Below, piece by piece: positions 8,134 through 35,457 of a DNA stretch of 43,886 bases (positions are counted from its first letter, which is position 1; every line of letters starts with the position of its first letter). The notes under the pieces were generated by a model that did not search any database, was not told the origin of the DNA, and saw only the letters and a program-made list of their open reading frames with translations. Where the stretch lies: positions 1-43,886 of the IMG/VR virus record IMGVR_UViG_3300035564_000041; one strand, written 5' to 3'. Both the position numbers and the translations under genes were made by a program. The stretch comes from a virus.

Positions 8134-8331
8134 ATGAAACTCACTTCGGAAATGAACCAAATTCTGGACGTGCTGCTCGCCAATTCGGAGCAGGCAAGGC
8201 AGACATTCATGATCTACCTGAACCAGTGCGCCGATGTGCTTGGCGTCGAAAAGAAGGAATGTCATTTCGACATGGCGACGAGATCTTTTGTCGCGAAAGA
8301 AGTAAAAAAACCTCTTCAGGAAGTTAAATGA
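8134..8331 (+). CDS. Hypothetical small protein (65 aa)
   Basis: ATG at 8134 after AGGATAAAA; the longer in-frame ORF lacks a ribosome site. It is a helical protein containing SEQARQTFMIYLNQCADVL. It overlaps the large terminase start by ATGA. The position before the large subunit is where a small terminase often lies, but there is no DNA-binding motif and it is very short, so I leave it unnamed. Confidence 0.7.
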   Translation: MKLTSEMNQILDVLLANSEQARQTFMIYLNQCADVLGVEKKECHFDMATRSFVAKEVKKPLQEVK

Positions 8332-10118
8332 CGTTTACGAAAAAGGACGACAGCACAATCCAGGAATCCCAAGCGATACTGTCGAACCTGTCTCCAGGGC
8401 AAGTCGGGCTGACTGAAAAATGGCAGTTCGAAAAGTGGCTCGAAAAGCGCCAGCGAGCGAGGACAGATCTATTCTGGCTTGTGAATTTCATCCTGGAACA
8501 TGATTGGGTGACGCACGAAATCCATGATCCCCTGATTGATTTCCTACCAAAATTTCAAGGAGGTGAAGACAACTTCGACTTTGATAAGCACATCTGGTAC
8601 GGCTACACGCCCAAGGTGCCGCTCGAAGAACTTAGCCCCGAAGAACTAAGGAACCTGATGGTGCTTCAGTTTCGAGGGTCGCTCAAGACTACAATCGTTG
8701 CCGAGGCGCTTTCCATTCAGTTCATTCTGAATTATCCAGACATCAGGATCGCTCTCGCAACTTGCGTAGGAGAGCAGGGCGAGACCTGTATGGACCCCAT
8801 CCGAAAGCATTTCCAGTTCAATGAGAACCTGCGCTTCCTGTTTCCCGAACTCTGCCCCCAGGCGAAGAAAGCCGCGGATTGGGGGAACATGAAGGAATTT
8901 ACGGTCTGCCGGCGAACCCGAAGGCGCAAGGAGCCTACCATGATGCTGATCAGCGTAGGCAAGGTCATTGCCGGGTATCACTGCGACGTGCTCCTGATAT
9001 CCGACATCGTGGATATCAATAATGTGCAGACGCCGGGGCAGATTCAGAACGTGATCAACTTCGTGGGGCATTGCGAGCCCCTCGTGGAACGGTATCCGAA
9101 CGGAACCGGAGGATGGAAGATAGTAGAAGGAACCACTTATGATTATTCGGACTTTTACTCTGTGCTGCGCGATTCCGAAGCTGAGAAGAAGGCGGATAAG
9201 CACGAATGGAAGATCTACGTCCAGAGTGCCAAAAAGGATGACGGCACCGCCTATTGGCCCGAACGAATGCCGCTTGCTCGCCTCGAAGCAATGGAGAACG
9301 ACCCTACCATCGGCCCACGTCTGGTCAGTGCTCAGTATTATCTCAACCCGATCCCAATGGGGGGAGGACTCGCCAAGGACGAGGAGATAATCTTCATCGA
9401 CGATCTCAAGCTGTTGAGAGCTCTGCGCCCGATGCTTCGGAAGCATGTAACAATTGACCTGAACGGCATGGACCCGGCGAGCAAAAAGAGCGACTTCTTC
9501 GCGCTCAATGTCAGCGGGTTCGACCGGGATGGGCGCATGATCTGCCTCGACCTGCGCTGCGGGCGGCCAAGTGTCTTCGAAGTGATCGACATGATGTTCG
9601 AGGTCGATGATCTCTACGGCAGCCCAACGATGCCGCTCGACTACAAGATGGAAAAGGACATGGCCGAAAAGGTCTTGATGCCCTTTCTCAAGCGCGAAAT
9701 GGAAAAGAGGCACCATTACCTTACTATTGTTGCCACATCTCGAGATACCAGGATGAGCAAGAAGCAGCGGATCCGCGCACTGCAGCCCTGGTTTCAAGCC
9801 AAGTTGATCAGGTTCGCAGGGGACATCACCTGCAAGGCCGAACTGATCAGCCAGATCAAGCGCTTTTCCGATACAAGCACCTACCACGACGACATCCTCG
9901 ATACGATTGCCGATCAGATGCAGAACCGGGAGGGAGGGGTGAATTACGATGTGATCCCGGACGCCCCAAGGGACGCCGAAAGGGAAAACCTTCCTTCCTT
10001 CTGCAAAGACAAGTTTCTGGGATTTGATCCAAACTCCGGGCAGCCAATGTGGAGCTTGGACATGATGACGGGCGGCATGGTCGATCAGCGCTATCACGAC
10101 AGAATGACAGGATTCTGA
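8328..10118 (+). CDS. terL: Terminase large subunit (596 aa)
   Basis: The packaging motor ATPase and nuclease that fills the prohead with DNA through the portal. A terminase-type Walker A, FRGSLKTT, is at about residues 115-122, and VLLISDIVD at 221-229 looks like the Walker B strand. The C-terminal RNase H-like nuclease shows VTIDLNG with an acidic residue at about 377 and HDDILDTIADQ at about 520-530. Length and order are normal for the family. It overlaps the upstream small gene by ATGA and the next gene by TGATG. A long antisense ORF on the minus strand here is a shadow. Confidence 0.93.
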   Translation: MTFTKKDDSTIQESQAILSNLSPGQVGLTEKWQFEKWLEKRQRARTDLFWLVNFILEHDWVTHEIHDPLIDFLPKFQGGEDNFDFDKHIWYGYTPKVPLEELSPEELRNLMVLQFRGSLKTTIVAEALSIQFILNYPDIRIALATCVGEQGETCMDPIRKHFQFNENLRFLFPELCPQAKKAADWGNMKEFTVCRRTRRRKEPTMMLISVGKVIAGYHCDVLLISDIVDINNVQTPGQIQNVINFVGHCEPLVERYPNGTGGWKIVEGTTYDYSDFYSVLRDSEAEKKADKHEWKIYVQSAKKDDGTAYWPERMPLARLEAMENDPTIGPRLVSAQYYLNPIPMGGGLAKDEEIIFIDDLKLLRALRPMLRKHVTIDLNGMDPASKKSDFFALNVSGFDRDGRMICLDLRCGRPSVFEVIDMMFEVDDLYGSPTMPLDYKMEKDMAEKVLMPFLKREMEKRHHYLTIVATSRDTRMSKKQRIRALQPWFQAKLIRFAGDITCKAELISQIKRFSDTSTYHDDILDTIADQMQNREGGVNYDVIPDAPRDAERENLPSFCKDKFLGFDPNSGQPMWSLDMMTGGMVDQRYHDRMTGF

Positions 10119-10376: not shown

Positions 10377-12509
10377 ATGGGATCTCACGCCGCACTCGGC
10401 CCGCTCACCGATGCGCAGCAAGACAAGGTAACTCTTCCGTCTCAGCGCTGGGATGATGACTTCGCGCTCAAGATCGCCAAGCGCGATTTCGAGGACTCCG
10501 AGGTGTGGCGCTCGAATTCTCTCGACTTCCGATGGCAGAACGCCGATCAACTCTATCTCGCCTGGGTGCAGCAGCGGTTCTGGGAAGGGACGCGCATCCC
10601 CCGGGCGAACATCGGGATTTACACGGCATTCGAGCAGATCGAATCCATGGTCCCGAAAATACTCCAATCAATCTTCGCGGACTATCCGAACTGGTTCCAG
10701 ACCGAAGCTAGGCCGGGGACAACCACAGACATGGCCCGCGCCGTCTCAAATCTCGTCATTGCCCAGATGGAAAACATGGGGCAGCACCGGATTGCCACCG
10801 TGCGCGAAGTCATGCGCCGATGCCTGAAATCGGCCGGCATCTACGGAAACGGGCCGGCAGAACTTTGTTGGCTTCAAAAGGAGGAAACGCGCTTCGTCAC
10901 CTTCCGGGAGTATTACCCGGAGCGGCAGGATATCACCCATCCGATCCTTGGCCGCCAGACCGTAAGCACGGGGCGCCAGCTATCGAGAATCCGCCAGATT
11001 CCCCGAGTCGAGAAAACGAATCAGCCCTTCCTGCGCTACATCAGCATCAAGGATTTCTACGTTGACCCGAACTGCGCGGGCCCCCAGGTTTCCGATGGCC
11101 GGTTCTGCGCCGTCCGAAAGCTGATGACTGTTGATGAAATCCTGTCCTACAAGAAATCCTTCGGGTTCAACATCCCAGACACCGGATACCTGGTCGAACT
11201 GAGCAAAAAGAAAATCGTGGCGCAGGGAGACAACACGAAGCAGATGGCTGATATGTACCGGCAGATGTGGTGGACCCCGCAGAACGACACGACTGCGGAT
11301 CCCGGAGGAAAGCGTCTCGAGGTGGTAGCCTACCACACCCCGGAGCGCCTGGTCTGGATGGCGAACCGGGAAGCGGTGCTTTACAATCAGCCGCATCCCT
11401 TCGGGTTCATGCCGTTCTATGACCTGTTTTACTGCGATGTCCTCGACCGGTTCTACGGACTCGCCATCACTGATGTGGTAGAGCCGGAACAGAGGCTTCA
11501 GCAGACGATCATCAACGCCCGCATCGATGAGCTTGCCCTTAACATCAATAAGCGCATGGTCAAGCGGCGCGGGGTTTCCATCCCCGCGTACCAGTTGAAG
11601 ACCCGGCCGGGGCAGGTTATCGAGACTGATAACCCGAGAGAGGATATCGTCTATGATGTTCCTCCAAATCAGGCCCAGGATGCTTACATCGAAGTTCAAG
11701 CCTCTGATAATCGCGTACAGAAGATTACAGGCGGAAGCGACCTCGCGCTACTTGGCACACCTTCGAGCGGAGGGAATAGCGCAAACCGAACAGCAACCGG
11801 AGTTGGGGCACAGGTACAAGCCACCGGATCGCGGGTTCAATACCAGGTTGAGAACGCGGAAGATACCGTAATCGAGCAGATGCTCTCCGACTGGCTCACG
11901 ATTACCCAGCGTTTCATCGAACGGGATCAGATCATAGATATGATCGGTCCAGACGGCCAGCAATTGCAGGTTGACCCACTGACCATCATCAATAGCCGGG
12001 TGAAGTTTGCTATGAGGGCTTCGGCGAAGATGGCCGCCAGGCAGGGATTGCTTCAAGTTTTCCCGCTTATCATGCAAAGCCTTTCCAACCCCGGACTACT
12101 GGCCGAACTCAGAACGGCGGGAATGACAGTCAATTGGACCGAACTCGAATCAATGGTGTTCGACGCCTGTGGATACCGAAACAAAACCAGCCTGTTCCGA
12201 AAACTCACCCCCGAGGAAGCACAACAGGCGAACCAGCCCCCGATTCAGGAAATGATCCGCATGCAGATGCAGCAGGAGCGCATCGCCGGCCAGAAGGACA
12301 TCGCCGAAGACAAGCAACTCGCGGATATGGTTCGGGAACTTATCAAGTCGGCAGTGGATCATCACAGGGGATCGGCGGAGACGGATCAACAGGCAATGCA
12401 TGATATCCAGAACCTCATCGTTGACAGGGCTATGCAGCATCAGACAGCCGTTACAACCGCCCAGATGGGGCAGCAACCAACTGAGCCCCAGGAGGTCAAC
12501 GCCGAATGA
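10377..12509 (+). CDS. Portal (head-tail connector) protein, podovirus type (710 aa)
   Basis: The dodecameric ring at the capsid vertex through which DNA enters and leaves. The size and the order terminase, small gene, portal, scaffold, capsid support the call. Visible features include the N-terminal helical region (QLYLAWVQQRFWEGTRIPRA), FYVDPNCAG and PFGFMPFYDLFYCDVLDRFYG in the middle, EPEQRLQQTIINARIDELA in the stem region, and a long Gln-rich C terminus (QEMIRMQMQQERIAGQKDIAE). GGAGAG precedes the ATG. The 3' end overlaps the next gene by ATGA. Confidence 0.88.
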   Translation: MGSHAALGPLTDAQQDKVTLPSQRWDDDFALKIAKRDFEDSEVWRSNSLDFRWQNADQLYLAWVQQRFWEGTRIPRANIGIYTAFEQIESMVPKILQSIFADYPNWFQTEARPGTTTDMARAVSNLVIAQMENMGQHRIATVREVMRRCLKSAGIYGNGPAELCWLQKEETRFVTFREYYPERQDITHPILGRQTVSTGRQLSRIRQIPRVEKTNQPFLRYISIKDFYVDPNCAGPQVSDGRFCAVRKLMTVDEILSYKKSFGFNIPDTGYLVELSKKKIVAQGDNTKQMADMYRQMWWTPQNDTTADPGGKRLEVVAYHTPERLVWMANREAVLYNQPHPFGFMPFYDLFYCDVLDRFYGLAITDVVEPEQRLQQTIINARIDELALNINKRMVKRRGVSIPAYQLKTRPGQVIETDNPREDIVYDVPPNQAQDAYIEVQASDNRVQKITGGSDLALLGTPSSGGNSANRTATGVGAQVQATGSRVQYQVENAEDTVIEQMLSDWLTITQRFIERDQIIDMIGPDGQQLQVDPLTIINSRVKFAMRASAKMAARQGLLQVFPLIMQSLSNPGLLAELRTAGMTVNWTELESMVFDACGYRNKTSLFRKLTPEEAQQANQPPIQEMIRMQMQQERIAGQKDIAEDKQLADMVRELIKSAVDHHRGSAETDQQAMHDIQNLIVDRAMQHQTAVTTAQMGQQPTEPQEVNAE

Positions 12510-15016: not shown

Positions 15017-16574
15017 ATGGCTTATCAGCCAGCAGGAAACACCACAGGAACGGCTACCCTCACACATCTTGCTGCGGTTTACTACAATCGCAAGGGATTG
15101 GATCAGCTCAAAAAGAAGTTCCGATTCCTGTCTGCCACTACTCCCGATGAGATTCCGTTGAGGAGTGGCCGACTGATGCAGTAAACGACCGAATCTGCTG
15201 CATCATAAAAATAGGACGCTATATGCTGGAAACTCCTGAGAGCCAAACGGTGCCACTAGAGCGAAAAACCGTTGGATTGGACAATCAGCACGCAATGCAT
15301 CTAGCTTGGCTTGCTGGATTATTTGATGGGGAAGGATCCTTGACGATTGGTAGGGATGAAAGGAGAAAACACACCAGACTAATCGCAAGATTTTCTATAT
15401 CTAACACAGATCCCAACATCATCGAGCGAGTTCAAGACATTCTTATTCGCCACGGTTTTCATCCATATGTTTATGAACAAGACAGGGCGGATTGGAAAAA
15501 GGTTTGCTATCACATTCAAGTAAATCGTCGTGTTGAGATCAAAATGATCATCGAAATGCTTATGCCGCATATGGTTGGGAAAAAAGCAAAAGCTGCGATG
15601 ATGCTAAGATTTATTGAGGCTCAACTGAAAAACAATTATGATGAATGTGAGACGGTTTTCACCGAGTTAAAGACTGCAAACACTAGAGGCAAGCCGTCAG
15701 AGACTACACGCGCCCCAGTATGCTTCATGCATTCTGAAGATATAGTCCACGCCCAAGCTGTAATGGCTGGGATTTAGGGTATCGGTACAGTTTATTTACA
15801 GCGAATACCACGCCAACCGCTGAAGGTGTTGTGGGCACGTCCCTGCCGCTGACTACCACGACCGTACAGGCTACGGTTTCGGAGTACAGCGACTTCATCA
15901 CGCTTTCAAGACTTTTGACCGAGACGGCGATTGATTCCATTGCGGCCAATGCCGCGGAACAGCTTGGATATCGCGCCGGCCTCTCGGTGGACACAATCAC
16001 CCGGAACGAGTTCGATTCCGTCAACTCCACGGCAACCGATGTCTCTACGCTCGGCGCATTCTTCGCAGCGAATGACATGCGGCGCGTGGTTGCGCTTCTG
16101 TCCGGCGCGGATGTACAGCCCCTGGACGGAGACACGTTCCTCGGCATTGCTCACCCCTACGCCACCTATGACCTGATGTCAGACAACACGGCGGGCGGAT
16201 TTATCGACATCACGAAGTACGGCGACCCGACGCGCAACTACAACGGCGAAGTCGGGAAAGTCGGCGGATGCCGGATCGTTCATAGCACCAACGTCTACAC
16301 CAGCGGCACCGCTCCAAACGTGCTCTACTACACCTACATCGTAGGCAAGGGAGCCGTGGGGAGCGTGGACCTGGCGGGCGTCGGTCCTTCCCGCGTGGAA
16401 GATCCAACAAAGCAGTCATTCCGAATCAACGCCTTCTCTGCCGGCCCGAATCCGGCGGACCCCGAAGGCAAGATCGGATCGTACGTTTCTTACCGCTTCG
16501 TCTATGTGGCGAAGATCCTCGATACGTCAACCTACCGTTTCCGGCGCGTCAAATGCGACGTGAGCTTGGTATAG
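15017..16574 (+). CDS. Major capsid protein, N4-gp56 family, split by a group I intron
   Basis: Coding parts are 15017-15182 and 15778-16574; joined they give 320 aa. Exon 1 ends LRSGRLMQ and exon 2 continues YRYSLFTANTTPTAEG and YSDFITLSRLLTETAID, text I recognise from N4-gp56-type capsid proteins. The junction restores a Trp codon (T from exon 1, GG from exon 2), giving MQ-W-YRY. Exon 1 alone would stop at once at TAA (15182-15184), so splicing is required. GGAGGG precedes the ATG. Capsid subunits of this family have an HK97-like fold and form the icosahedral shell. The flanking genes (portal, scaffold-like, decoration-like) support this. Confidence 0.9.
15183..15777 (+). ncRNA. Group I self-splicing intron in the capsid gene (595 nt)
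   Basis: All conserved parts are visible. P1: exon GATGCAGT (15175-15182) pairs with GCTGCATC (15197-15204), with the required U-G wobble at the 5' splice site. P4: TGCTG (15224-15228) pairs with CAGCA (15286-15290) in the Q element. The R element GTCAGAGACTA is at 15696-15706 and the S element AAGATATAGTCC at 15737-15748; their GACTA and TAGTC form P7. The intron ends with G (15777), as group I introns require. It removes an in-frame stop and restores the capsid frame. It carries a LAGLIDADG endonuclease gene. Confidence 0.93.
15295..15777 (+). CDS. LAGLIDADG homing endonuclease inside the intron (160 aa)
   Basis: The motif LAGLFDGEGS sits a few residues after the Met encoded at 15295, as in the single-motif, homodimeric I-CreI type. 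RFSISNTDPNIIERVQDIL and the C-terminal helix KAKAAMMLRFIEAQL fit the family. A longer start at ATG 15223 (184 aa) is possible, but it would make ribosomes traverse the P4/Q core; 15295 lies just after Q. The reading frame still overlaps R and S, and its TAG stop uses the last intron base (15775-15777). Such enzymes cut intron-less alleles and so spread the intron. The coding sequence is more AT-rich than the capsid exons, a sign of separate origin. Confidence 0.88.
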   Translation: MHLAWLAGLFDGEGSLTIGRDERRKHTRLIARFSISNTDPNIIERVQDILIRHGFHPYVYEQDRADWKKVCYHIQVNRRVEIKMIIEMLMPHMVGKKAKAAMMLRFIEAQLKNNYDECETVFTELKTANTRGKPSETTRAPVCFMHSEDIVHAQAVMAGI

Positions 16575-31906: not shown

Positions 31907-31983
31907 AATCCCCTCCACATGAGCCACACCCAGATGAGCCAGCAAAGGGCTACTCCGAGACGGTAACGGGTTTTGTCTCTCAT
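31903..31983 (-). CDS. 26-residue membrane microprotein, coupled on both sides
   Basis: An ATG at 31983 shares ATGA with the stop of the PAPS-reductase-like gene, and the TGA at its 3' end shares ATGA with the methyltransferase start. The product has a short basic head (MRDKTRYR) and a Trp-rich hydrophobic segment (LGVALCWLIWVWLMW). The precise double overlap and amphipathic design argue that it is translated. Without it the gap between the two enzymes would be empty. Function unknown; anchoring a partner or a pore role is possible. Confidence 0.65.
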   Translation of the reverse strand: MRDKTRYRLGVALCWLIWVWLMWRGL

Positions 31984-32849
31984 ACTCCGCACATCCCAGA
32001 GCAGTCTTCTCCGAACAGGCTTAACTGCCCATTGTCTTCTGCTGTGCTAAAATCGACTTCTTTAATTGGCTTCATGCTGCGATGCAAGAACACAGTGCCG
32101 GTATTACCGGCAGTGTGCCTAATGGCCTCGTCAAACTCAATCACATTTGCCCAATACTTAGGATTGGACTTGATCTTTGCCCACTCTGAATCTTTGTGGA
32201 AAGGGCAACCCAAGCAAGCAGATCGAGGCACAGGATACGGCCAATTCGCTTTTAGCCATTCCGTGCAATCGGTTCGAGAGTACCGCTTCGGGAGTAGGTC
32301 TTCAGGACATCCGCAGAGAGGATATTCAAAACTCTGCCACGCATGATTTGCGGTTCTCATTCTGTGCGCTTCATCAACCGAGATCCCAAACCATTGTTCC
32401 GCAACTGGTTCTTTTAGCGCTCTCTGTCGAGGTTTCAATCCAAGAATCTCCCGCTTGATAAACAACTCAATTGGAGCGATCTTGTAATCTGCGGTGCATT
32501 GCCTTCTGATTTTTCCCTGAGAACCGTCAGGGTTCTGAACATACATCGGCATTGATGCCCATCGGTCAGCGGTGCCTCCTGGAGCCCGATGCCTTCCATC
32601 TGGATTTGTCCGAAACAGAATCGCATCACTTCTCAGGTCTCCAGCCTTAACCCTATGAATCGGCACGCTGAGTTTTTCGAGCCTCTCCAGGTGCTCGTAA
32701 ACTTCATCCGGTTCCCATCCTGTATCCGCAAAGATGGCACAATCCAGTTCAGGCAAGATTCCCTTGATCGACATGAGCAGGACGGTTGTGGATTGGACGC
32801 CTGCCCCGAGGTTTAGGATTCGGTAACGGGTTTTCGATACGGTTGCCAT
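31980..32849 (-). CDS. PAPS-reductase/DndC-like PP-loop protein (289 aa)
   Basis: The start at 32849 is the first ATG with a purine-rich site and precedes the PP-loop strand. Residues 11-22 (ILNLGAGVQSTT) are the modified P-loop of adenylate-forming PP-loop enzymes; FADTGWEPDEVYEH and RRQCTADYK fit the PAPS reductase/DndC branch. Six or more Cys in the last half (CGCP, CLGCPF and a CSGMCG tail) could hold an iron-sulfur cluster. Members act in sulfate reduction or, as DndC, in DNA phosphorothioation. Here the neighbours are DNA methyltransferases and there is no other Dnd gene, so a DNA- or nucleotide-modification role is inferred. Confidence 0.8.
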   Translation of the reverse strand: MATVSKTRYRILNLGAGVQSTTVLLMSIKGILPELDCAIFADTGWEPDEVYEHLERLEKLSVPIHRVKAGDLRSDAILFRTNPDGRHRAPGGTADRWASMPMYVQNPDGSQGKIRRQCTADYKIAPIELFIKREILGLKPRQRALKEPVAEQWFGISVDEAHRMRTANHAWQSFEYPLCGCPEDLLPKRYSRTDCTEWLKANWPYPVPRSACLGCPFHKDSEWAKIKSNPKYWANVIEFDEAIRHTAGNTGTVFLHRSMKPIKEVDFSTAEDNGQLSLFGEDCSGMCGV

Positions 32850-33004
32850 GTCGGTCCCTTGAAATCCTCTTGGCCGTTGAGTAGTTGGCACTGATACAGC
32901 CTGTCCATTGCCTGGGCGAGCATCTCGAGTTGCTTCCTGCTCGCCGTGCGCTGCATGCGCTCGATGGCCGCTCTTGCAATGCCGATATCGTCAAGATCGA
33001 TCAT
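32813..33004 (-). CDS. Hypothetical small helical protein (63 aa)
   Basis: Start at 33004, where AGAGGAATAAAA precedes the ATG. Helical, containing RTASRKQLEMLAQAMDRLYQ. It overlaps the downstream PAPS-like gene by 37 bases and the upstream small gene by 14, so these genes are tightly packed. No family recognised. Confidence 0.65.
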   Translation of the reverse strand: MIDLDDIGIARAAIERMQRTASRKQLEMLAQAMDRLYQCQLLNGQEDFKGPTWQPYRKPVTES

Positions 33005-33185
33005 TTTTATTCCTCTTGAATAGCCCACAATCAACAGCAAGTTCCATTGCTGGACTGAGTTTCCTTGCGATGAGCCTCTGCACTCGTCTGATGGCCGCGT
33101 CAATCTCCCGATCCTCCGGGCAGAGCTGGTAGAGGTCGTCGGAGATGCTGAGGGCGAGCTTGAAACTAGGCTTCAGCTTGCGCAT
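32991..33185 (-). CDS. Hypothetical small helical protein (64 aa)
   Basis: Start at 33185 with AAAGGG upstream, overlapping the helicase-methyltransferase stop by 20 bases. It contains LALSISDDLYQLCPEDREID and a basic helical C terminus. It may be related in style to its downstream neighbour. Unknown function. Confidence 0.65.
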   Translation of the reverse strand: MRKLKPSFKLALSISDDLYQLCPEDREIDAAIRRVQRLIARKLSPAMELAVDCGLFKRNKNDRS

Positions 33186-35457
33186 CGAATAGCCCTTTCT
33201 GTGCTCCCATGTGGGCTTCGGCTTCGGTGAGGTTCTTCGCCGCCGTTCTCGCATAGAGCGGCTTCAATTCGATCCCGATGAACTTGCGCCCCTGCTGAAG
33301 CGCAACGTATCCCTCGGATCCAATACCGGCGAACGGACTGAACACCGTTTCTCCGGGATTACTCCAAAGCCTGACACATCGCTCGATGGTCCCGAGTTGC
33401 AGGGCGCAAATGTGCCGGTCATCTTCGTCGGCGCGTCCCTCTGCCGTATTCAGCGTGTCCGATTCTCGAATGCCGTACCAGATCGGACGCGCCCATTCGA
33501 TCCATTGCTCATTGTCGATGTCTGGATGGATCGGCGCGTCATTCTCTCCGGGCTTGCGAAATACTAAAATGTAATCCGCCATCGCGGGGCGAAGCCAGGA
33601 GGAATCCTTTTTAAGCTGAGTGAACATCAATCCCTTTGCATGAACGCGGATAGCCTGGGCTTGCGGGTCCTTGTCGATTACCACTTCACCGTGATAGATC
33701 CATCCATTGTCTATGAATTGCTCGACAGTCTTTCCCCTGAAATCGTTGACTCCGATAACTCCATGGTTTACCAGTGTTGTTGCGACCTGGGCGCAATGGA
33801 CGCAGCACAGCCGGCCCGGCTTCGTGATCCGCATGAGGCCGTCGATGATGAATCTAAAATGCTCGAAAAATTGGGCATCGTTTTTGGAGTTTCCCAAGTC
33901 GCGTTCCGTTGCCGAATAGGTATAAAGCGCAAGAAAAGGTGGGCTAAAGATTGACAGATCGACAGATTCAGATGGGATCTTTTCCATTTCTATCGCGGAA
34001 TCTCCCTGATAAATCTTCCAATTCGAGCTTGAGTATTTCAAGGTTTCGATCTTTTCCGATACTCCATTTCTACCAAGCTCCTCCTTCTCGAATCTGTTCG
34101 CCGCAGCAATAATGGTTCTGGACAAGGTTTCCGACTCCTTTTCTTTCCTTCTCACGTTTTCAACGATTTCCTCTTCGTGATCTGTGATTACCACGTAAAC
34201 ATCGACGGGGCGCTTTTGTCCATAGCGCCAGCAACGGCGAATGCACTGGTAGTACATTTCATAGGAGTCTCCCAAGCCCATGAAAATCATGGTGCTCGCG
34301 TTTTGGAAGTTCATCCCGAAGCCTGCAATTTTTCCCTTGGTCACAAGGACGCGGAGCTTACCGGAAACGAAGTCTGAAATAACTTGGCGCTTGCGTTCCT
34401 GGGAATCCGTTCCCTGTAGGTTTTCCGCTCCTTCGATTGCTCTGGCGCATGCTGAGGCTTCTGGATTCAACGCGCACCATACGATTACTTGACCGTCGGC
34501 CTCATTGGCAATGTCGGCAACGGTTCGAACGCGGTCTTGAATGCTGTTGCGTCTCACTGAGATTCTGTCAGTGATTCCCTTCAATCCTCCAGGAAACAGT
34601 TCGCCCGGCCTTCTCCAGTCTGTAGGAACCACGGCGTCATGGATATTCAATGGAGGCAACTCGAAAAGAGAGCCATCATAGCCAAGGTCAGACGGCGATT
34701 TCATGGCCATTGCCCACGAAGCGAGCCAGCGATAAAAGGGCTCTTTCGCGTGTCCGCGCAGTCGCCATCCCTCGTCGTCATGAACGAAAAAGGATGCGAG
34801 CATTTCATTTCTCGGCATCACTCCGAGGAATTGAGAGTGATTGGCAATCTCAGCGATATCGTTTGGGCAGGGAGTTGCCGTGCAACAAAGCCGGAATGGG
34901 ATATTTGTGAAATGGTCGAAAAGGATCTGCTTGGTTTTTCCATCTATCGATTTCAGGATCGAAGATTCATCAAGCACGATTCCGCGCAAATCAGCGCCGA
35001 TGAAATGCCGGATCATCTCATAGTTGGTGATGTTGATACATTCGCGCAGGTCGAAGACATCCCGGACATTTCTGACTTGCAAACCAAGCTTCAGCCCTTC
35101 TTTGACTGTCTGTTCGTTAACGGTCAGCGGAGCGACGATCAAAACTGTTCCTCCTACATGGCGAGCCCATTCAAGTTGTTGCAGGGTCTTCCCGAGCCCG
35201 CAATCCTCGAAGATGGCCGCTTTGCCGCGCTTCAAAGCCCATCGCGTGATGTCGCGTTGGAAGTCATAGAGTATGGGGTTAATTGCCTCTGGTGGAACGT
35301 CGATCCCGGTCTTTTCGGCTACGATCCGCTTCGACTTCAGAAACGTCTCGTACTCCGTTAGTCGCGAGCCATTGGTGATAGGCTGCGCATTTCCAGCTAT
35401 GGGGAGAGTAGGGTTCTCTGATTTTTCGTTTGCAGTAAGGGCAGATTCCGATGGCAT
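33166..35457 (-). CDS. SNF2-type helicase fused to a DNA amino-methyltransferase (763 aa)
   Basis: The N-terminal two thirds is a DEAD/SNF2 ATPase: motif I CGLGKT (about 86-91), II DESS (163-166), III TATP (193-196) and a motif VI-like QCIRRCWRYGQ (404-414). The C-terminal third is a SAM-dependent methyltransferase: SPPF at 505-508, with the S-P-P-(Y/F) catalytic motif of N4-cytosine (beta-class) enzymes, and the SAM loop FSPFAGIGSEG at 706-716. Thus it may move on DNA and methylate exocyclic amines. The first 30 residues overlap the upstream zinc-protein frame and look unlike the family, so translation may begin later than 35457. Fusions of this kind occur in phages and mobile elements. Confidence 0.88.
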   Translation of the reverse strand: MPSESALTANEKSENPTLPIAGNAQPITNGSRLTEYETFLKSKRIVAEKTGIDVPPEAINPILYDFQRDITRWALKRGKAAIFEDCGLGKTLQQLEWARHVGGTVLIVAPLTVNEQTVKEGLKLGLQVRNVRDVFDLRECINITNYEMIRHFIGADLRGIVLDESSILKSIDGKTKQILFDHFTNIPFRLCCTATPCPNDIAEIANHSQFLGVMPRNEMLASFFVHDDEGWRLRGHAKEPFYRWLASWAMAMKSPSDLGYDGSLFELPPLNIHDAVVPTDWRRPGELFPGGLKGITDRISVRRNSIQDRVRTVADIANEADGQVIVWCALNPEASACARAIEGAENLQGTDSQERKRQVISDFVSGKLRVLVTKGKIAGFGMNFQNASTMIFMGLGDSYEMYYQCIRRCWRYGQKRPVDVYVVITDHEEEIVENVRRKEKESETLSRTIIAAANRFEKEELGRNGVSEKIETLKYSSSNWKIYQGDSAIEMEKIPSESVDLSIFSPPFLALYTYSATERDLGNSKNDAQFFEHFRFIIDGLMRITKPGRLCCVHCAQVATTLVNHGVIGVNDFRGKTVEQFIDNGWIYHGEVVIDKDPQAQAIRVHAKGLMFTQLKKDSSWLRPAMADYILVFRKPGENDAPIHPDIDNEQWIEWARPIWYGIRESDTLNTAEGRADEDDRHICALQLGTIERCVRLWSNPGETVFSPFAGIGSEGYVALQQGRKFIGIELKPLYARTAAKNLTEAEAHMGAQKGLFDAQAEA

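Follow-up and report, generated by a model that had tools for sequence, protein, structure and literature searches.

A putative mobile group I intron in the major capsid gene of a tailed phage, and related introns in capsid genes of environmental phages

Introduction

The major capsid gene of the tailed-phage record IMGVR_UViG_3300035564_000041 lies in two parts separated by 595 nt, and the intervening DNA holds an open reading frame. We asked whether the two parts belong to one gene joined by splicing, whether the intervening DNA is a mobile intron, and whether a capsid gene is an unusual home for such an element. The window is the whole stretch of DNA analysed, 43,886 nt (positions 1 to 43,886 of the record). 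Phage group I introns are described as favoring genes of nucleotide and DNA metabolism, a bias termed mysterious in one 2025 paper (PMC12350094) and a central question in another (PMC11878797).

Results and Discussion

The interrupted capsid gene

The capsid gene of the window is surrounded by tail genes, and recombination and replication genes lie on the other strand. The features of the locus are as follows.

8328-10118: terminase large subunit
10377-12509: portal
15017..15182, + strand: exon 1 of the major capsid gene, 166 nt, residues 1-55 and the first base of codon 56 (homologue alignment)
15183..15777, + strand: group I intron, 595 nt (frame restoration, core helices, covariance model)
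15223..15777, + strand: LAGLIDADG homing endonuclease ORF (PF14528, phrog_5046)
15778..16574, + strand: exon 2 of the major capsid gene, 797 nt, the rest of codon W56 to the stop (homologue alignment)

Two other genes of the window were noted. Positions 31980-32891 encode a phosphoadenosine phosphosulfate reductase-like protein (phrog_424, E 4e-41), and positions 33166-35457 encode a 763-aa protein whose matches are to DNA helicase PHROGs along most of the sequence and to DNA methyltransferase PHROGs in the C-terminal part.

Joining position 15182 to 15778 restored an in-frame product of 320 amino acids with no stop, as the initial annotation had proposed, and the codon for W56 is split by the intron between T and GG. 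The spliced product matched the major head protein family phrog_1357 (E 8e-34), and capsid chains from the PDB matched the family profile over positions 6-83 (E 2e-7). Homologues were gathered by a search with the exon 2 protein and through the capsid family alignment. The 320-aa product aligned to them through the join, and the site was uninterrupted across residue 56 in 67 homologous loci representing 55 distinct proteins. Q55, the residue before the split codon, was invariant in the first capsid family alignment. At the DNA level the empty site, in which CAGT is followed directly by GGTATCGCTACAG, was present in L002, L003, and L013.

Anatomy of the intron

The G+C content of the intron is 43% compared to 54% for the window. 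Its core and splice-site elements were located as listed.

15174..15182, + strand: exon side of P1, TGATGCAGT, whose last base is the splice-site U
15197..15205, + strand: internal guide sequence of P1, GCTGCATCA
15214..15219, + strand: 5' strand of P3, GGACGC, pairing with 15710-15715 with one A.C mismatch or bulge
15224..15228, + strand: 5' strand of P4, TGCTG, pairing with 15286-15290
15286..15290, + strand: 3' strand of P4, CAGCA
15702..15706, + strand: 5' strand of P7, GACTA (R element)
15710..15715, + strand: 3' strand of P3, GCGCCC
15717..15735, + strand: P8 hairpin, AGTATGC...GCATTCT (sequence and constrained fold)
15743..15747, + strand: 3' strand of P7, TAGTC (S element)
15752..15771, + strand: P9 hairpin, CCCAAGC...GCTGGG (sequence and constrained fold)
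15777..15777, + strand: terminal G (omega-G), the 3' splice site

P1 forms 9 bp with a U·G pair at the splice site; only 0.1% of shuffles equalled it, and no second U in positions 15017-15299 achieved a 9-bp P1. The R element is TCAGAGACTACACG and the S element is GAAGATATAGTC, and the exact matches to the P4, P7, R, and S motifs were each unique within the window. P5 and P6 were also found. P6 is weak, with 2 of 3 pairs formed, and P3 carries its single mismatch, so that the intron may be less active or rely on protein assistance. Its last base is G, as in all 9 capsid introns analysed. The P1 with its U-G pair, P4, P7, R, S, and terminal G named in the initial annotation were thus all confirmed in the window.

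These elements bear on whether the locus is spliced at all. A free-standing homing endonuclease gene could instead have split the capsid gene into two pieces that are translated separately. The ORF does lie between two capsid fragments, and a case in which an endonuclease gene interrupts a phage reductase gene has been mentioned (PMC10448857). However, the ORF here is framed exactly by a complete group I core with a covarying P3, a P1 with U.G, and a terminal G. Moreover, the first possible in-frame start codon of exon 2 is at 15831, and with no earlier start the conserved residues 57-73 would be lost from a separately translated piece. We regard two separately translated pieces as extremely improbable and favor a spliced group I intron.

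Covariance models and covariation

The initial annotation had proposed an Rfam group I covariance search as a check, with the lack of a hit counting against the intron. At the Rfam cut-off that refuting outcome would have applied: there were no matches in the window, and two partial matches of RF00028 to the intron scored 24 and 13 bits, below the cut-off of 50. The window intron shares P1, P3-P9, the R and S elements, the U.G at the 5' site, and the terminal G with RF00028 introns, but differs in having an ORF in the P6 loop that interrupts the core and pushes the score below the cut-off, the Q and R elements being separated by several hundred bases of coding sequence. Eight ORF-less introns of the same subclass scored 69-80 bits with RF00028, above the cut-off, and we therefore attribute the shortfall in the window to the ORF.

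A group I signal was nevertheless recovered with an independent covariance model, trained on 15 ORF-less members carrying the R...S motif, with the window excluded to avoid circularity. This model matched the window at 15219-15325 (37.2 bits, E 7e-7) and at 15666-15751 (27.0 bits, E 1e-4), in the correct order and on the correct strand; the next best match in the window had 8.1 bits (E 1.9). Covariation was counted over the named helices of 17 cores, the window among them. Pairing was found in 97.6% of helix cells, 10 pairs were altered on both sides, and the covariation score was 0.359 compared to 0.112 after shuffling and 0.10 or less after sliding. P3 had both-side changes in 5 of its 6 pairs and supplied most of the signal, since R, S, and most of P7 are set by the search pattern and their conservation therefore carries no independent weight.

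The endonuclease reading frame

The ORF scored 38.3 bits against PF14528 (cut-off 22.5) and matched phrog_5046 (E 1e-12). It contains a single LAGLIDADG motif, LAGLFDGEG, with the acidic residue intact, and its stop codon, TAG, is the last triplet of the intron, ending at 15777. The start is uncertain, either the ATG at 15223 (184 aa, at P4) or the ATG at 15295 (160 aa, directly before the motif). A start at the P4 ATG was considered as a family trait and rejected, since of 37 introns with an ORF only 5 have this start in frame. The stretch between the two halves of the core has 40% G+C in a phage of 54%. No match to the endonuclease was found among cultured phage records.

An intact reading frame also bears on whether the intron is functional. 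The window could hold a degenerate group I intron that has lost splicing, within a capsid allele that is dead or dying, or it could be chimerically assembled. The P3 mismatch and weak P6 are compatible with decay, and broken alleles can occur on metagenomic contigs. The core helices are formed, however, the endonuclease frame and the capsid frames on both sides are intact, and the same arrangement recurs in unrelated contigs. A degenerate or artifactual locus is very improbable in our estimate.

Introns in related capsid genes

The capsid of L147 is 53% identical to that of the window over exon 2, and its gene has an intron at exactly the same base. That intron is 645 nt long and carries its own LAGLIDADG ORF, which shares 32% identity with the ORF of the window across 87 residues. 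Its P1 (GGCTCAGT/GCTGAGCT) differs in sequence from that of the window yet still pairs, its P3 is CAACAC/GTGTTG, and its P7 (GACTT/AAGTC) is altered on both sides relative to the window.

A single insertion site near residue 55 shared by all capsid introns was considered and rejected, as only L147 shares the window's base. Introns in L195, L241, L220, L234, and L176 are near this site, with none exactly there. The intron of L150/L151 follows capsid residue 21. In Tunturi_3 numbering, L019 has introns after residues 29 and 189, and L021 has introns after residues 91 and 187 and before residue 318; L029 and L045 have an intron at the position of the first of these, in very different capsids. The capsid gene of L021 (L021:1712-4888) thus consists of four exons and appears to be interrupted by three group I introns. 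Its counterpart in the cultured Tunturiibacter phage Tunturi_3, 73-81% identical to L021 over the exons, is uninterrupted.

Several other features of these genes were observed. Capsid exon 1 of L147 (L147:2154-2354) contains an insertion of 36 nt that includes an in-frame TGA (GCGTACTGG...CTGGG), close to the position of the L150/L151 intron; it could be a scar, recoding, or an assembly error. In capsid exon 1 of L019 (L019:407-538), an insertion of 45 nt lies between D22 and K23 and includes an in-frame TAG; its beginning pairs with the exon in the manner of a P1 (CTACGAT/GTCGTAG) and its last base is G, so that it resembles an intron lacking a core. In phrog_1328 capsids (L185, L240, L252, and relatives), introns of the same subclass, some with an ORF and some without, were found just before a conserved site coding for EW.

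Host genes of the wider intron population

We scanned IMG/VR for the R...S motif without using the host gene and obtained 82 distinct introns. Among the ORFs on the exon 2 side (n = 71), the commonest PHROGs were all major head proteins, as follows.

phrog_1357: 16 members
phrog_267: 11 members
phrog_1328: 10 members
phrog_283: 8 members
phrog_617: 5 members

Approximately 44 of the 71 introns adjoined major-capsid coding sequence, when a cluster was counted if one of its members had been recognized as a head protein. Five more had capsid coding sequence upstream (L190, L193, L199, L218, and L244), with the assignments of L199, L218, and L244 resting on similarity to clusters. The capsid match held on both sides of the intron in at least 8 cases (L195, L241, L212, L230, L235, L214, L249, and L250) and was judged from one side for the remainder. 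Other hosts in this subclass were one ribonucleotide reductase gene and one portal gene.

For a second subclass, an earlier motif found only 6 loci and was replaced by AACGACTA..C...GATATAGTC, which gave at least 100 dereplicated downstream ORFs. The leading families were major tail protein (at least 17) together with tape measure, endolysin, terminase, and several major head families; among the best 25 families listed, none was a polymerase or reductase. Judged from these sequence matches, the window's subclass appears to reside chiefly in major capsid genes, which belong to several capsid families, and the second mostly in virion genes, within a survey that is a sample of two motif classes and not a census.

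Comparison with known systems

A capsid location had been considered unusual in the initial annotation on the grounds that such introns in phages are known mostly from genes of DNA metabolism. The survey counts above do not support this, and there is precedent in mycobacteriophage LittleE, in which a capsid-gene intron was proven by RT-PCR and N-terminal sequencing and whose authors cite a further capsid-gene intron in lactococcal phage Tuc2009 (PMC3706429). LittleE and the window share the major capsid gene as host, a U before the intron, a terminal G, a LAGLIDADG-like ORF, and empty sites in close relatives (PMC3706429). They differ in that the LittleE intron is approximately 819 bp with its ORF on the opposite strand, whereas the window intron is 595 nt with its ORF on the + strand, and splicing in LittleE is proven experimentally, whereas the window intron is known here from DNA sequence (PMC3706429). 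In the Bastillevirinae, too, essential phage genes contain group I introns, many of which carry endonuclease ORFs; those introns, however, are in DNA polymerase, reductase, and terminase genes (nucleotide and DNA metabolism and packaging), in contrast to the mainly major capsid location of the window's subclass (PMC11878797). The window intron is one more case of the already known capsid-gene group I introns, and its membership in a widespread capsid-centred set is the more interesting result. Our literature search, which covered few subscription papers or preprints, found no paper describing this capsid-centred population.

Proposed mechanism and significance

Taken together, the anatomy, covariation, exact frame restoration, empty sites, and endonuclease domain, all obtained directly, along with the independent covariance model, indicate that a major capsid gene contains a group I intron bearing a homing endonuclease gene, as initially annotated. 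We place a probability of about 93% on a mobile group I intron that carries a LAGLIDADG gene in its P6 loop, lies in the W56 codon, is spliced to give the 320-aa capsid protein, and is capable of homing. By analogy with established group I biology, which guides our account of self-splicing, homing, and timing, the ribozyme core (P3-P9) would fold in the late transcript and guanosine would attack after the U of P1. Exon 1 would then attack after the terminal G, joining the exons to allow synthesis of the full 320-aa capsid protein. The endonuclease would be translated from unspliced RNA and would cut intron-free capsid genes at the conserved W56 coding site; the intron would spread when such cuts are repaired from the copy that carries it.

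Since each particle requires hundreds of copies of the capsid protein, splicing would have to be efficient late in infection, and the capsid gene of L021 appears to need three such events. Beyond the window, it is probable, though with much less confidence than for the intron itself, that environmental tailed phages hold a large population of group I introns, many with LAGLIDADG genes, that reside chiefly in late virion genes (major capsid, tail, and tape measure). If this is true, the bias toward DNA-metabolism genes would reflect which phages were cultured, and models that explain this bias by early metabolic switching would need revision. The host genes found for the two subclasses make the question of what determines intron distribution testable with metagenomes.
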